Of a stretch of DNA of 35,017 nucleotides, positions 7,383 to 29,533 are shown one piece after another. The stretch covers positions 1-35,017 of the forward strand of contig JAPLJP010000164.1 in the NCBI GenBank assembly GCA_026388535.1. The letters are read 5' to 3'. Positions within the stretch are counted from its first letter, which is position 1; each line of letters opens with the position of its first letter. The translations under genes and the position numbers were made by a program. The notes beneath the pieces were generated by a model. It was not told where the DNA came from and searched no databases. It saw only the letters and a program-made list of their open reading frames with translations. This stretch comes from Deltaproteobacteria bacterium. Lineage in GTDB: Bacteria; Desulfobacterota; Syntrophia; Syntrophales; Smithellaceae.

Positions 7383-7750
7383 TCCGCGGAAAAAAATCGT
7401 TAATCTTTTTCTAATTGTACAACTGTATACTGAAATAAAAAAATCATTGTTAATTATTTGATTATAAAGATTATTAGGATAGTGATTGCACGTGGATATC
7501 CCGCTTTGCGTGATAATTCGACTAACGCTTCAAACTTCACTTCATTCGTTTTCAGCAAGCCTCATTACAACTAGCAGATATTACTGCGCTTTAATTGTAA
7601 TACCTGAGTTTCATTAACCCCGCGTCGCTTCGGGGATAATTCGACTAACGCTTCAAACTTCACTTCGTTCGTTTTCAGCGAGTCTTATTATAAAAATCCT
7701 TGATTTTCGTTCTAGTTTGGTATAGAAACCACCCCTACTAATTTTTAGGA

Positions 7751-11774: not shown

Positions 11775-12917
11775 TTATTTTATTATTAATGTATTGATGA
11801 CAGCCTCAACCCTGCGATTCTTCTGCCGTCCTTCTTTTGTGTCATTACCGGCTATCGGTCTGGTTTCTCCATAACCAACAGCGGTAATTGTGGCTTGATC
11901 TATCCCGAATTTATCGATTAAGTATTGACGTACACTTTCAGCTCTGTTCTGAGACAGTGTGACATTGTGTTCCTCTGTGCCGACATTATCGGTATGTCCT
12001 TCGATAACAACGTTATTCTGGGGATACGCTTTCATAAAATCGGCTACTTTCTTAATATCTTCATAATATTTTTTCTTAACATAAAACTTATTGGTATCAA
12101 ATTCTACATTAAGCGTGATGGATATCTTCTCATGAACACAGCCGTCTTTATCTACCTTAGCACCGGCGGGTGTATTTGGGCACTTGTCAAGGTAATCGGG
12201 AACGCCGTCCTTATCGGAATCAAGCGGACAACCATCCTTGTCTACAGCCACGCCAGCCGGTGTATCGGGGCACTTATCAAGATTATCGGGAACACCGTCC
12301 TTATCGGAATCTACAGGTGGAGGTGGTGGAGGTGGAGGTGGAGGTGGTGGGGGGGGAGGAGGAGGTTCCTCAACCTTTTTTTCTCCGCCGAAGGCGAAAC
12401 AAATTCCAAAAGAGACAAGTAAGTCGTTATAATTGTCGTTGATCGGAAGAACATGCCGTACATCTGCCCGCAAAGCGATATCGTCCGTCATGAAAAGTTT
12501 AAACCCGGCGCCGTAATCGACAGAGAATTTACTCATATTAGGATCTCCGGGAGGAGTGGTATAATGAATTCCTCCGATACCGACCGCCAGAAATGGAACA
12601 AAGCGGCTCTCGGGCATGAAATGGTAAAGGCCTTCAATACCGTAACTAAATAGCTCAACTTCATTTTTACCGGGCATATCTTCAATTTCCGTTGGAACGT
12701 AGCCTAAAACTCCTTCCACGCCGATATTTTTTGTAAAGTTATAGCCGGCGCGCAAACCAGCGGTATATGTGTTTTTGAAATCATACTCGTTCCCCTCAAA
12801 GAAATAACCTCCAATATAAGGCGTAATTGAAATAGATCCTGCTCTTACTTCTGCCTGTGCTATAGTGGAGACAGCCATCAGCATTATGAGAATTATTAAC
12901 ATGCCAATTTTCTTCAT
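11775..12917 (-). CDS. OmpA-family outer-membrane protein with thrombospondin type-3 repeats and polyproline linker
   Basis: N-terminal barrel (YIGGYFFEGNEYDFKNTYTAGLRAGYNFT), ~17-residue Pro run, DSDKDGVPDNLDKCPDTPAGVAVDKDGCP repeats, C-terminal OmpA motif (VVIEGHTDNVGTEEHNVTLSQNRAESVRQYL). Confidence 0.93.
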   Translation of the reverse strand: MKKIGMLIILIMLMAVSTIAQAEVRAGSISITPYIGGYFFEGNEYDFKNTYTAGLRAGYNFTKNIGVEGVLGYVPTEIEDMPGKNEVELFSYGIEGLYHFMPESRFVPFLAVGIGGIHYTTPPGDPNMSKFSVDYGAGFKLFMTDDIALRADVRHVLPINDNYNDLLVSFGICFAFGGEKKVEEPPPPPPPPPPPPPPPPPVDSDKDGVPDNLDKCPDTPAGVAVDKDGCPLDSDKDGVPDYLDKCPNTPAGAKVDKDGCVHEKISITLNVEFDTNKFYVKKKYYEDIKKVADFMKAYPQNNVVIEGHTDNVGTEEHNVTLSQNRAESVRQYLIDKFGIDQATITAVGYGETRPIAGNDTKEGRQKNRRVEAVINTLIIK

Positions 12918-21802: not shown

Positions 21803-22072
21803 TTTTTACACCTTATATGGCGGATGAAGAGTTTTTCGAAAATGTGTCCATGCTTCGAGGGAAACCAGTTTTTCAACAATTAACTGTAGGTTTTAATCGG
21901 GTCCCTCTAAATATTTCAGAAGCAAAATTAAAGGGACTGTTTTATATGTTTCTATTTTAAACGTTACTTGGTTAGAAAGCAAAAAAGTATATTTAAATAA
22001 AAGCCTTATATTTGTATCAATTTTAGATAGACGGGTCAATAGTTTAAACAAAAAATAAAGATTTATTGTGAA

Positions 22073-22366
22073 ACTCCAATTCCAAAAGCGAAGCGTATAA
22101 CCTAAAGGTCACGCGTTGGAATTGGTAAGTTGTAATGAGACTCAAACTTTAAAAAGCGAATAACCTAAATACCCTAAAGGGCACCGTGGGGTCACTATAG
22201 GCGTAGCGGAATTGGTAAGTTGTAATGAGACTCAAACTTTAAAAAGCGAAGCGAATAGAAGTTTGTTAGTCGAATTATCCAATAGCCAAAGGCTATTGGA
22301 TACAATCCAGCGAAGCGTAGGGTACAATACCCCGGAGCTTGTTTTGGGGTTCATACCCGTGATAAG
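22073..22366. repeat. Modular hairpin-mosaic intergenic element (copy E2)
   Basis: TAATGAGACTC/GTAAGTTG linkers, GCGAAGCG loops, exact 43-bp direct repeat 22118-22160 = 22208-22250, perfect hairpin CCAATAGCC-AAA-GGCTATTGG (22279-22299). Confidence 0.85.
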
Positions 22367-23259: not shown

Positions 23260-23384
23260 GGGGCTGTTGAAAAACGCTCATCTACTGTGTTGCGCTGCAA
23301 ACCGCACCGCTCAACGTATATCTATATACGCCTCGCGGTTCGGTTTTTTGTGCGCCTTGCATCTGAACATTTTTGAACAGCCCC
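23260..23384. repeat. ~125-bp palindromic repeat (copy P1) upstream of RAYT gene
   Basis: GGGGCTGTTGAAAAACGCTCA ... TGAACATTTTTGAACAGCCCC ends, with inner hairpin TATATctATATA. Confidence 0.8.
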
Positions 23385-23453: not shown

Positions 23454-23518
23454 TAATGACACTCGCTGAAAACGAGTGCAGTGGAGTTTGAAGCGTAAGT
23501 GGAATTATCCTAAATTAG
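23454..23518. repeat. Modular hairpin-mosaic intergenic element (copy E3, short)
   Basis: TAATGACACTCGCTGAAAACGAGTGCAGTGGAGTTTGAAGCGTAAGTGGAATTATCCTAAATTAGG; matches the E1 reverse-complement core. Confidence 0.8.
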
Positions 23519-23540: not shown

Positions 23541-23573
23541 GACATTCCGGATTAAATAGTGCAATTGAAGATC

Positions 23574-24260
23574 ATGCCCCGATTAGCCAGAATAACAGCC
23601 ATAGGTTACCCCCATCATGTCACTCAACGCGGCAATTATCGCCAGCGAGTGTTTAAAACAAATAACGACTATAAGCAGTACTTGTCTTGGCTGAATGAAT
23701 ATTCTGAGAAGAACTCTCTGGATATATGGGCCTATTGCCTCATGCCCAATCATGTTCATTTTATCTGTGTTCCGCAGAAGATTGATTCTCTGGCTCGCAC
23801 CTTCAACACGCTTCATATGCGCTATTCGCAGTACATGAATAAAAAGCAGGGAGCATGCGGTCATTTATGGCAGGGCAGGTTCTTCTCATGTATTCTTGAT
23901 GAGAAACATCTATTTGCCGCAGTTCGCTATGTTGAAAATAACCCGGTGAGGGCAGGTATAGTCAAGTCACAGGGGGAATATCATTGGTCAAGCGCTAAAG
24001 GACATATTAATAAGGGAGGCGATCTCATATTATGCAAGAAATCATTTTTGCATGATGATATCGAGGACTGGTTATCATATTTAAATTCAGGCGAGGACAA
24101 TAATATAGTTGAATGCATAAGAAAGAAGACGAGAGTTGGCCAGCCTTATGGTGAAGATGGATTTATGATTAAACTGGAGAAAAAGCTCGGCATGAAGTTA
24201 AGTAAAGGCAAGCCTGGCAGGCCGAGGAAAGTCAGAGTGCCAAAAGGCGGCGATAAATAG
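23574..24260 (+). mobile_element. REP-associated tyrosine transposase (RAYT; Y1/IS200-like domain)
   Basis: MPRLARITAIGYPHHVTQRGNYRQRVF...YCLMPNHVHFICVP...HMRYSQYMNKKQGACGHLWQGRFFSCILDEKHLFAAVRYVENNPVRAGIVKSQGEYHWSSAKGH. Confidence 0.93.
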
Positions 24261-24293: not shown

Positions 24294-24418
24294 CAGACTG
24301 TTGAAAAACGCTCATATGCATCGTTTCCCTTATCATTCGGCGTTGCGGCGTACGCTAAAGTACGCCTCACTTCTCATGATTGCGGGAGCCTTGCCTCTGA
24401 ACATTTTTGAACAGTCTG
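24294..24418. repeat. ~125-bp palindromic repeat (copy P2) downstream of RAYT gene
   Basis: CAGACTGTTGAAAAACGCTCAT ... TCTGAACATTTTTGAACAGTCTG; inner perfect hairpin GGCGTACgctaaaGTACGCC; same orientation as P1. Confidence 0.8.
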
Positions 24419-25351: not shown

Positions 25352-25379
25352 TAAAAGACTAGCCACGCGAAGTCTTTTA
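25352..25379. repeat. Perfect 9-bp hairpin with GCG-rich loop
   Basis: TAAAAGACT-AGCCACGCGA-AGTCTTTTA. Confidence 0.6.
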
Positions 25380-25398
25380 AATGAGAGATCGTTGACAA

Positions 25399-25609
25399 CT
25401 GAATATAGAATCACGGGTAAGACCCCGAAATGAGCGTCGGGGTTCTTACCCTCCGCTGTGCGGGATAATTTCCAATAGCATTTAGCTATTGGATAATTCG
25501 ACTAACCAACTTTAATTCGCTTTGCTTTTAAAGTTTGAGTCTTATTACGACTAACCAATTCCAATGTGTTTCACTTTTGGAATTGGAGTCTCATTAATTC
25601 TATATTCAG
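25399..25609. repeat. Modular hairpin-mosaic intergenic element (copy E4) with perfect 13-bp terminal inverted repeats
   Basis: CTGAATATAGAAT (25399-25411) / ATTCTATATTCAG (25597-25609) enclosing four serial hairpins. Confidence 0.88.
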
Positions 25610-25731
25610 TAAGCAGTAGTAAATAAATTCTTATTTGAAAGAAATTAGAGGCAGGAGGGGTAATGAAAAATCGCGCAGTATTAAGAGTCTAATAGTTCCT
25701 AACAATTAAACAAAAACAAACACATCCCACC

Positions 25732-25760
25732 TTGACACAAGACATATTTATGCTTATTCT
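25732..25760 (+). promoter_or_regulatory. Sigma-70-type promoter for the diadenylate cyclase gene
   Basis: TTGACA - 17 nt - TATTCT upstream of the ATG at 25798. Confidence 0.6.
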
Positions 25761-25797: not shown

Positions 25798-26670
25798 ATG
25801 AGATCTATAAACAAAACCATGATTGAACATGCCATTAAAATTGCGCATGAAATTAAAGCAGACGCTTTGCTTGTCAGTGTGGATGTAATCAACGATATGA
25901 GCCTGCTGATGGATGAACTAAAAAAAGATATCAGCTTCATTATCGTTTCTCGCGAGAATGAATCAATATCGGACGAAGTGAAGAAAAACGCCCGAATATT
26001 ATACATTCCCAATGTAAATCTAACCCGCGTGGGAAAAATTAAAATTGCCATTGCAAAAGGGATAGTTTTAGGCTTTTTTAAAAGAGGCGATAAAGTTGTC
26101 TGTTTAAGCGGTGTGCCCAGATTTGGTTACACAGACAGCATTTTTGTAATTGATGTGGGCAAAGAATTTGAGATTTTAACATCTGATTTTATCAATGATG
26201 TAATTGAAAATGTCCGGCCGGAAGTTTTTAACGCCGCATTAAATATAGCCTGCGAACTGGCCGCTCAGGGAAGAGAAAACAAAAAAGTGGGAACGATCTT
26301 TGTTCTGGGAGACGATGAGAAAGTTATGCAGCTTTCCCAGCAAATGATTATCAACCCGTTTATGGGATATTCGGAAGAACAGCTTAACATTTTGAATCCC
26401 GAACTGGAAGAAACCATCAAGGAATTATCGGCGATTGACGGCGCCTTTATTATCAAAGAAAATGGTGTACTTGTGACTGCCGGAAGACATCTTAACGCCG
26501 CGCTGGACAGCCGTGATTTTCCCGCAGGCCTTGGCAGCAGACACATCGCCGCTGCCGGTATTACCAGCGTAACAAAAGCAGTGGCTATAGTCATTTCCGA
26601 ATCTTCGGGAAACGTAACTGTTTTTAAGAACGGTAAGCTGTTTGTGACTATTGAAAAACCGGTAGAATAG
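25798..26670 (+). CDS. Diadenylate cyclase (DisA_N/DAC domain) with N-terminal pyruvate-kinase-C-like alpha/beta domain, DacZ-like
   Basis: C-terminal DGAFIIKENGVLVTAGRHLNAALDSRDFPAGLGSRHIAAAGITSVTKAVAIVISESSGNVTVFKNGK carries the DGA and RHxAA motifs of DAC domains; N-terminal ~150 aa resembles the PK C-terminal fold. Confidence 0.85.
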   Translation: MRSINKTMIEHAIKIAHEIKADALLVSVDVINDMSLLMDELKKDISFIIVSRENESISDEVKKNARILYIPNVNLTRVGKIKIAIAKGIVLGFFKRGDKVVCLSGVPRFGYTDSIFVIDVGKEFEILTSDFINDVIENVRPEVFNAALNIACELAAQGRENKKVGTIFVLGDDEKVMQLSQQMIINPFMGYSEEQLNILNPELEETIKELSAIDGAFIIKENGVLVTAGRHLNAALDSRDFPAGLGSRHIAAAGITSVTKAVAIVISESSGNVTVFKNGKLFVTIEKPVE

Positions 26671-26861
26671 TGACACTCGTTAAGAGTGAATCCCGACATG
26701 CCGGGATGAAGCTCGAAACGTAAGTGGAACTATCCTAGGAACGAAGTGACGTAGGGTAGTGAGTCCCAAGTTTTAGAAGCGTAGCGTATGGGGATAGTGA
26801 CATCAGCCAAATTATCCAATCCCAATGAGTCGGGATTGGAAATTATCCCGCAAAGCAGGGG
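26668..26861. repeat. Modular hairpin-mosaic intergenic element (copy E5)
   Basis: CACTCgttaaGAGTG; GAAACGTAAGTGGAACTATCC; hairpins CCAATCCC-aatgagtc-GGGATTGG (26816-26839) and CCCGCAAAGCAGGGG; lies between the cyclase stop and the clpB start. Confidence 0.82.
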
Positions 26862-26876
26862 TAGAGGAAATGCAAT

Positions 26877-29489
26877 ATGCGTTTTGACAAATTTACTTTA
26901 AAAGTCCAGGAAGCGATCCAGGAGGCGCAGACACTGGCCGGTTCATACGGTCATCAAGAGATTGAGCCGGAACATCTGCTTGTTTCTTTTTTGCGGCAGG
27001 AAGAAGGCATTGTTGGAGCTGTTTTGGAAAAGCTGGGTGCCAAGCCAAATCAGATTGAGAAGGCGCTTATAAGTTTTCTGGAAAGACAGCCTCGCATCGA
27101 GGGTTCAGCCACAGGTCAAATATATCTTTCTGCCCGTTTGAATAAAATTTTCGATAAAGCCCTTACCGAAGCAGCCCGTCTCAAAGACGAATATGTAAGC
27201 GCGGAACATGTCTTGATTGCGGTGACTGAGGAAAAAACCGGTGAAGCCGCGAAAATTTTGCGGCAAGCGGGGGTAACCAAAGACAATATCTTTAAGGTGT
27301 TGGTGGAAATCAGGGGCAATCAAAGAGTTACCGACCCTAACCCGGAGGGGAAATATCAAGCTCTGCAGCGTTACGCCAGAGACTTCAATGAACTGGCCCG
27401 TAAGGGTTCTTTTGATCCGGTAATCGGCCGCGATGAAGAAATACGGCGCATCATGCAGGTGCTTTCTCGCCGTACAAAAAATAATCCGGTCTTAATCGGA
27501 GAACCGGGTGTCGGGAAAACAGCGATTGTTGAAGGATTAGCGCAACGCATTGTCAATGGCGATGTGCCGGAAAACCTGAAAAATAAACGCGTCATTGGTC
27601 TGGACATTGGTTCTCTGGTGGCCGGCGCGAAATATCGCGGCGAATTTGAGGAACGTCTGAAAGCGGTTTTGAAGGAAGTGATCAGCGCTCAAGGTGAGAT
27701 AATTCTCTTTATCGATGAAATACATACAGTTGTCGGAGCGGGTGCGGCGGAAGGTTCGATGGACGCTTCTAACATGCTCAAACCTGCTCTGGCCAGGGGG
27801 GAGTTGCGTTGTGTGGGCGCGACAACGCTTAACGAATATCGAAAATACATAGAAAAAGATGCGGCTCTGGAGCGTCGTTTTCAACCGGTTTTGGTCAAGG
27901 AGCCGACGGTGGAGGATACAATCGCCATCCTACGCGGACTGAAAGAACGTTATGAAGTTCATCACAGGGTGCGGATAAAAGATTCGGCCATAGTAGCCGC
28001 CGCTACGCTTTCGCACCGTTACATAACCGATCGCTTTCTGCCGGATAAGGCTGTGGACCTGATTGACGAGGCGGCATCCCGTTTAAAAATAGAGTTGGAC
28101 AGTATGCCTTCGGAAATTGACGCTATTGATCGTAAAATCATACAACTGGAAATAGAACGTCAGTCTTTGAAAAAGGAAACTGATAAAACCGCCAAGGAAC
28201 GGCGCGACAAGATTGAAAAGGAACTCGCCGATCTTAAATCCAGCATGGCTCAGATGAAAATACACTGGTCAAGTGAAAAGGATATAATCAATAAAATCCA
28301 AAATACTAAAGGCAAGATAGAGGCTTTAAAAACAGAAGAGGCCAATGCCCAGCGCGAAGGCAATCTTGCGAAGGTCGCGGAGATTCGCTACGGAAAGCTT
28401 GTAGCTTTGGACAAAAATTTACAGGAGGATCAGACAAAACTTCTGGAGATTCAAAAAAACAAACAAATGCTCAAAGAAGAGGTGGATGCGGAAGACGTGG
28501 CCGAAGTTGTCTCCAATTGGACGGGCATACCGCTATCAAGGATGATGGAAAGCGACGTGCAGAAACTCATTCATATGGAAGAACGGCTCAAAATGCGTGT
28601 CATCGGTCAGGATGAAGGCATTGGGGCGGTCTCCGCGGCGTTGCGCCGAGCGCGGTCCGGATTGCAGGATCCTAACCGTCCCATCGGATCGTTCATTTTT
28701 CTGGGACCCACAGGTGTTGGCAAAACCGAACTCGCACGCGCTTTGGCGGAATTCATGTTTGATAATGAACAGGCGATGATTCGCGTTGACATGTCGGAAT
28801 ATATGGAAAAACACGCGGTGGCTCGTCTGATCGGCGCTCCACCCGGTTATGTAGGCTATGACGAAGGAGGATATCTGACTGAAGCGGTGCGGCGTAAGCC
28901 CTACAGCGTATTACTTTTCGATGAAATTGAAAAAGCTCATCCCGATGTTTTTAATATTTTATTGCAGATACTCGATGACGGAAGGTTGACTGACGGGCAT
29001 GGCCGAACCGTTGATTTCAAAAACACAATAGTGATTATGACTTCCAACGTTGGCAGTCAATGGATACAGGATCCGACTTTAGATGATAAAGAAAAACAAA
29101 GCCGGACACTGGAGGCATTGCGTGCGACGTTTAAACCGGAATTCTTAAACCGCATAGACGATACGATTATGTTTTCCGCACTGAAACTGGAGGATATCTA
29201 TAAGATTGTTGATATTCAGATGAGTCTGATTGACAAGCGGCTCAAAGAGCGAAAACTGAGCATCGAATTGACAGAAAAGGCGAAAAACTATATAGCCGAA
29301 CAGGGCTACAGCCCTGTTTACGGTGCCCGTCCGCTTAAACGTTCATTGCAGAAACTTATTCTGGATCCGCTGGCGATGGAAATTCTGACCGGCAAATTTG
29401 CCGAGGGAGATCGAATCATCGCGGGTTTATCCAAGAAAGGTGAAATAACTTTAATGAGGCTCGCTAAAGACGAACGCAGTGAAGTCTGA
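26877..29489 (+). CDS. clpB: ATP-dependent chaperone ClpB
   Basis: [35 protein letters not shown]; two AAA+ modules ([37 protein letters not shown]); ClpB middle domain. Confidence 0.97.
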
Positions 29490-29533
29490 AGCGCAAGCCG
29501 AATTATCCCCGGAGCGTAGCGGAGTGGGATAAG
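29471..29533. repeat. Modular hairpin-mosaic element (copy E6) overlapping the clpB 3' end
   Basis: CGAACGCAGTGAAGTCTGAAGCGCAAGCCGAATTATCCCCGGAGCGTAGCGGAGTGGGATAA; matches the E1/E3 core. Confidence 0.78.

Follow-up and report, generated by a model that had tools for sequence, protein, structure and literature searches.

The question raised by this locus is whether a perfect inverted repeat enclosing a chain of hairpins marks the ends of a repeat unit. The window, that is the whole 35,017-nucleotide stretch of DNA that was analysed, has such an arrangement, and the preliminary description read it as a copy of a repeat family whose 13-bp terminal inverted repeats may define the unit boundaries. 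The body at 25410-25596 is indeed one copy of a modular, high-copy family of hairpin-chain repeats and has the standard left end of that family, but the arms are not family ends. The best explanation is probably that a non-autonomous, modular, BOX-like mobile repeat without terminal inverted repeats (TIRs) was inserted at the centre of a palindrome. The features on which the analysis is based are given below in the coordinates of the window.

25398-25411, no strand: left 14-bp arm ACTGAATATAGAAT, beyond the family end as judged from 18 complete copies; its overlap with the family left end is the shared AAT only (25409-25411)
25410-25596, + strand: family element proper, ATCACGGG...GAGTCTCATTA, without a TIR of its own
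25415-25451, + strand: hairpin 1, the left-end module, GGGTAAGACCCCGA/TCGGGGTTCTTACCC
25452-25464, + strand: mini-hairpin TCCGC-TGT-GCGGG, with two-sided changes at 3 of 4 pairs across copies
25471-25493, + strand: hairpin 2, TCCAATAGC/GCTATTGGA
25494-25547, + strand: hairpin 3, with feet TAAT/ATTA and GACT/AGTC and a strongly covarying stem
25549-25590, + strand: hairpin 4, GACT..CCAATTCCAA/TTGGAATTGG..AGTC
25597-25610, no strand: right 14-bp arm ATTCTATATTCAGT
22062-22363, - strand: second complete copy, with standard family ends and no outer arms

The inverted arms are perfect and were correctly located, and their true length is 14 bp (25398-25411 and 25597-25610), one base more than first noted. 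The four serial hairpins were found where they had been placed, hairpins 3 and 4 being extended by GACT/AGTC feet, and the fold also has a fifth small hairpin which had been missed (TCCGC-TGT-GCGGG, 25452-25464). Hairpin 4 is a tandem relative of hairpin 3, with 49-bp spacing and 71% identity. The closed multibranch structure suggested earlier is predicted for both strands by RNA folding of 25390-25620, with -89.2 kcal/mol (z -9.7) for the + strand and -91.8 kcal/mol (z -11.5) for the - strand; 0 of 200 dinucleotide shuffles were as good in either case, and the 14-bp closing stem is present in both predicted folds. The share of the arms in the fold energy is about 17 kcal/mol (-87.8 with arms versus -71.0 without). 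Markov shuffles of 35 kb contain on average about 0.4 inverted 13-mer pairs spaced by no more than 400 bp, so the arms taken alone are only mildly surprising. They adjoin the family ends, which were defined independently from other copies, at 0 and 4 nt, and this abutment is not chance.

The complete copies of the family are 97-341 bp long, start with AATCACGGGTA and usually end with GGAGTTTCAC(N)AATAAA. In the flanks of the 18 complete copies the left end reads (A)ATCACGGGTA, also written AATCACGG, and the usual right end reads GGAGTTTCA(C)(N)AATAAA, while some copies, that at 25410-25596 included, have the alternative right end GAGTCTCATTA (CATTA, no AATAAA). At 40 left ends having AAT next to CACGGG, the three bases before the junction are A in 80%, A in 88% and T in 88%, the bias being much lower at positions more distant from the junction. 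Of the right ends, about 40 were compared, and most have the form ..TTTCAC(N)AATAAA. The left end and the right end show no inverted-repeat relation to one another. Inverted flanks are absent from 17 of 17 other complete copies, in which the runs are of 4-8 nt, at chance level; the longest run at the 25410-25596 copy is 13 nt, and none of about 5,000 permuted pairs of left and right flanks exceeded 10. Empty orthologous sites of other loci also put the junctions at the family ends and not at the arms. Since inverted flanks are at chance level in the other 17 copies and the junctions fall at the family ends, the arms do not form the unit boundary, and the unit has no TIRs of its own. The case is a warning that inverted repeats enclosing a structured element, even perfect ones, need not mark where that element ends.

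At least 42 BLAST matches to the stretch were obtained in its own 2.86-Mb draft genome, most of them covering the interior without the arms; all such per-genome counts are lower bounds. A covariance model (A1/R1), built on the mini-hairpin, hairpin 2 and hairpin 3, gave matches in every one of the 17 genus genomes, in 41 of the 51 family genomes (about 80%) and, outside the family, in only 10 of the 104 other genomes from the order, where a single weak match was the rule. The single strong match outside the family lies on a 3.5-kb contig of one genome (G061) and may reflect a binning error. Named records carrying a core string of the repeat are mostly Smithella and Syntrophaceae MAGs, and the plasmid records and viral contigs searched with the repeat gave no match. 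An Rfam search of the window at the gathering threshold returned tRNA only, so that the repeat matches no family there, and no relevant work on Smithella repeats came up in our literature search. To judge by the literature and databases searched, the family looks undescribed, its kind, the bacterial interspersed repeat, being already known, and it is most likely a mobile repeat mainly of Smithella-like bacteria. The analysis gives the ends, modules and host range of this abundant, apparently undescribed TIR-less mobile repeat, to which no transposase is assigned.

The same site was found both occupied and empty at several loci. Between leuD and leuB the site is empty in 11 genomes (for example GAGGAAAGA directly followed by ATGAAAC, or in G014 CAGGAAATGAGGAAAGA directly followed by ATGAAACAAAAC) and three others, G000, G012 and G011, have a copy at this very base; the copies begin with ATCACGGG and finish with GTTTCACA immediately 5' of the ATG. 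Between gatB and mtnA it is empty in most genomes (GCCGGATA joined to ATGATTAA) and occupied in G000, G008 and G003. The DisA-like diadenylate cyclase (DAC) gene of G006 has a copy 3' of the -10 box of its conserved promoter and 5' of its start codon, which should alter the leader RNA of this gene. Because occupied and empty versions of one site occur, the family is mobile or precisely excisable, and its clean sites of both states are usable for experiments. In a tree of three genes the genomes occupied at leuD-leuB do not group as sisters, yet their copies have a common unusual insert in hairpin 1; this would fit one old insertion precisely lost several times, or exchange of the locus, and gain versus loss is ambiguous. 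Most copies have AAT at each of their junctions, the empty sites have it once (a single AAT in two of them), and deviations of the left-junction AAT are not mirrored on the right, so that a 3-bp target duplication and a target preference are both possible and the data fit either.

The stems of the hairpins covary strongly across copies. In 28 copies the paired cells in stems amount to 93.6% versus 88.0% in shuffles, two-sided stem changes to 43 cells versus 12.3, and the covariation score to 0.206 versus 0.108, the signal being lost when the partners are slid. At leuD-leuB the stem of hairpin 3 is wholly different in G000 and G012 and complementary in each. Such compensatory change may come from selection for the hairpins or from template-switch correction of quasipalindromes. 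Minimal copies (about 106-119 bp) have hairpin 1, the mini-hairpin and hairpin 4 only, while larger copies add hairpins 2 and 3, their relatives or other modules, the internal modules being optional and interchangeable. The loop of the last hairpin holds hairpins nested one within another (CCTATAGTGACC..GGTTATTTAGG units), with loop lengths mainly of 16, 34-36, 56 and 76 nt, the classes lying about 20 nt apart (27 distinct cases), as if each round adds 20 nt. Nested-loop hairpins were seen in L024, L011, L147, L055, L006 and other copies, and within the window at 22090-22200; the copy at 22062-22363 (- strand) has an internal 43-bp tandem duplication along with its nested loop hairpins. We tentatively suggest, as a rather speculative idea, that both growth and spread of the family proceed by insertion of hairpins into hairpin tips, at the level of the whole element (the 25410-25596 copy at a palindrome centre) and at that of the module (nested loops of 16, 36, 56 and 76 nt). 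If true, this would be a TIR-less, structure-targeted movement, or a templated growth, with folded single-stranded DNA as its substrate. The stepwise nesting of hairpins and the replacement of stems in place offer a natural record of palindromic DNA growth and correction.

When the element is deleted in silico, the arms join as a perfect 26-bp palindrome, ACTGAATATAGAATTCTATATTCAGT, which is centred on GAATTC and has AAT, the usual junction of the family, at its centre. In the preferred reading, the copy would have inserted at this AAT, the exact centre of the palindrome, and the palindrome halves would then clamp the hairpin chain into one closed structure. No empty orthologue of the site was found among the 51 genomes of the family, no relative having these flanks, and the intact palindrome occurs nowhere in the 17 genomes of the genus; for these reasons we infer, rather than observe, that the palindrome predates the insertion. 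Against such a target, palindromes of this kind are rare (in 400 kb of G008 the sole perfect spacerless palindrome of at least 22 bp is one of the family's own hairpins), and a random strike would be unlikely unless hairpins are preferred, a preference which the 17 other copies do not show. The arms may instead have grown after insertion, for which we see perhaps one chance in a few: replication would stall at the hairpin chain, the template would switch at its base, and one flank would be copied as the inverse of the other, giving an outer 14-bp stem from unlike flanks (quasipalindrome correction). This would also explain, without selection for structure, the two-sided replacement of whole stems in other copies. 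It agrees with arms that are perfect and unique to the 25410-25596 copy, with the atypical right end of this copy, with stems elsewhere that change on both sides together, including the whole-arm replacement at one orthologous site (G000 versus G012), and with template-switch homogenisation of inverted repeats, which is documented (PMC7202029, PMC8604942). It requires, however, a 14-bp copying event that stops exactly at the left end of the family, and the AAT of most other insertion sites is here the palindrome centre, as insertion into a palindrome predicts. We favour insertion at the palindrome centre over later growth of the stem. That the arms are a genuine terminal stem, lost or diverged in other copies, so that the unit is a TIR-bearing MITE or a BOX-like element with pairing ends, is quite unlikely. 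The arms do lie immediately outside the conserved ends, the fold is closed, and the ends of BOX do pair (PMC3049150), but paired flanks were found in 0 of 17 other complete copies, the occupied/empty junctions fall inside the position of the arms (between AAT and CACGG, and between CAC and AAT), and the joined arms have no second copy in the genus. The missing flanks and these junctions largely refute it.

A reading of a different kind, which we consider improbable, is that the repeat acts as a structured RNA, for example as regulatory leader, terminator or mRNA stabiliser, and is conserved locus by locus for this function. The strong covariation would suit it, and several copies lie in likely transcripts: at leuB (L004/L177) and mtnA (L109, L212) the right end TTGGAGTTTCACAATG abuts the start codon and has GGAG 7-8 nt before it, and here the element seems to supply its own putative ribosome-binding site. 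The copies are almost all intergenic, with one apparently inside an ORF by simple ORF calling. They show no preferred orientation relative to the genes (14 co-directional in the same sense, 22 opposite, 14 divergent and 5 convergent), presence or absence at the same locus varies among close relatives, and neither an Rfam match nor a terminator signal was found, all of which speaks against such a role. A terminator role was considered separately and rejected, there being no T-tract signal and no favouring of convergent gene pairs (5). The 25410-25596 copy itself is upstream of the promoter (25732-25760) of the DAC gene (25798-26670), in a 2.5-kb stretch which is specific to its own genome and also contains a Y1 (RAYT-like) transposase gene; G003 has the same interval between sigma factor and DAC genes without such a repeat.

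Non-inverted ends, each occupied by a hairpin, suit enzymes whose substrate is a folded single strand better than they suit classical DDE transposases. As the family has ends of this type, the enzyme that moves it would act on single-stranded DNA in folded form. No transposase could be tied to the family, and an autonomous partner, expected as two family ends spaced by 0.5-5 kb, was not present in the about 0.5 Mb sampled, which is part of the genomes only. The nearest candidate is the IS200-like tyrosine transposase (RAYT) encoded at 23559-24260, which would make the family a REP/BIME-type repeat. Its Y1_Tnp gene is 1.1 kb from the copy and is one of three in the genome, but it is bracketed by a different sequence, AGGGGACAGCGCCCTATT, and not by ends of the hairpin-chain family; G008 (98% complete, 10 contigs) is rich in copies and has no Y1_Tnp match, while G020 has four Y1_Tnp genes and zero copies. 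We regard this assignment as highly improbable. Repeats without a Y1_Tnp match are found in G008, G011, G012 and G003, and with all three genomic Y1_Tnp loci flanked by other repeats and no correlation between transposase and repeat, Y1_Tnp/RAYT is not supported as the mobiliser. The gene at 23559-24260 is also bracketed by a second repeat family, CTGTTGAAAAACGCTCAT...TGAACATTTTTGAACAG, at 23264-23380 and 24298-24414.

Among the known systems, the family is closest in architecture to the BOX repeats of Streptococcus pneumoniae, which have end modules and a variable number of internal modules over about 67-637 bp (PMC3049150). It has the composite modules, high copy number, intergenic location, hairpin-rich sequence, nested or clustered insertions and restriction to one group of related species described for BOX (PMC3049150), as well as the A-Bn-C plan with optional internal modules; the comparison is with the description of BOX and no shared sequence is claimed. 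Unlike BOX, its ends do not pair as terminal inverted repeats (0 of 17 other complete copies), and each internal module is a hairpin with a covarying stem and loops with nested hairpins. REP/BIME repeats are intergenic palindromes of 20-40 bp with RAYT transposases (PMC2817692, PMC3733652), and the family resembles them in its intergenic palindromic mosaics, compensatory change in hairpins and the RAYT-like gene in the window. It differs in copy length (97-341 bp), in its ends (AATCACGG and TTTCAC-AATAAA, with no GTAG or CGTC head), in having no RAYT gene flanked by two inverted repeat copies and in the lack of correlation between transposase presence and the repeat. Like bacterial MITEs (e.g. 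RUP, ERIC and Nezha) it is short, non-coding and dispersed, with occupied and empty orthologous sites (leuD-leuB, gatB-mtnA and, with copy L083, the DAC leader in G006), but it is without terminal inverted repeats, and its AAT target duplication is only possible.

Some further features were recorded in the window. Partial modules of the same superfamily (GGATAATTCGACTAACGCTTCAAACTTCACT...AGCGAGTCTCATTA) are at 7512-7693, 23454-23509, 26756-26863 and 29452-29507, and a hairpin outside the family, TAAAAGACT..AGTCTTTTA, is at 25352-25379, to the left of the element. A run of AGGTGGAGGTGG repeats occupies 12315-12362 on the + strand, within the reading frame 11775-12917 (- strand).
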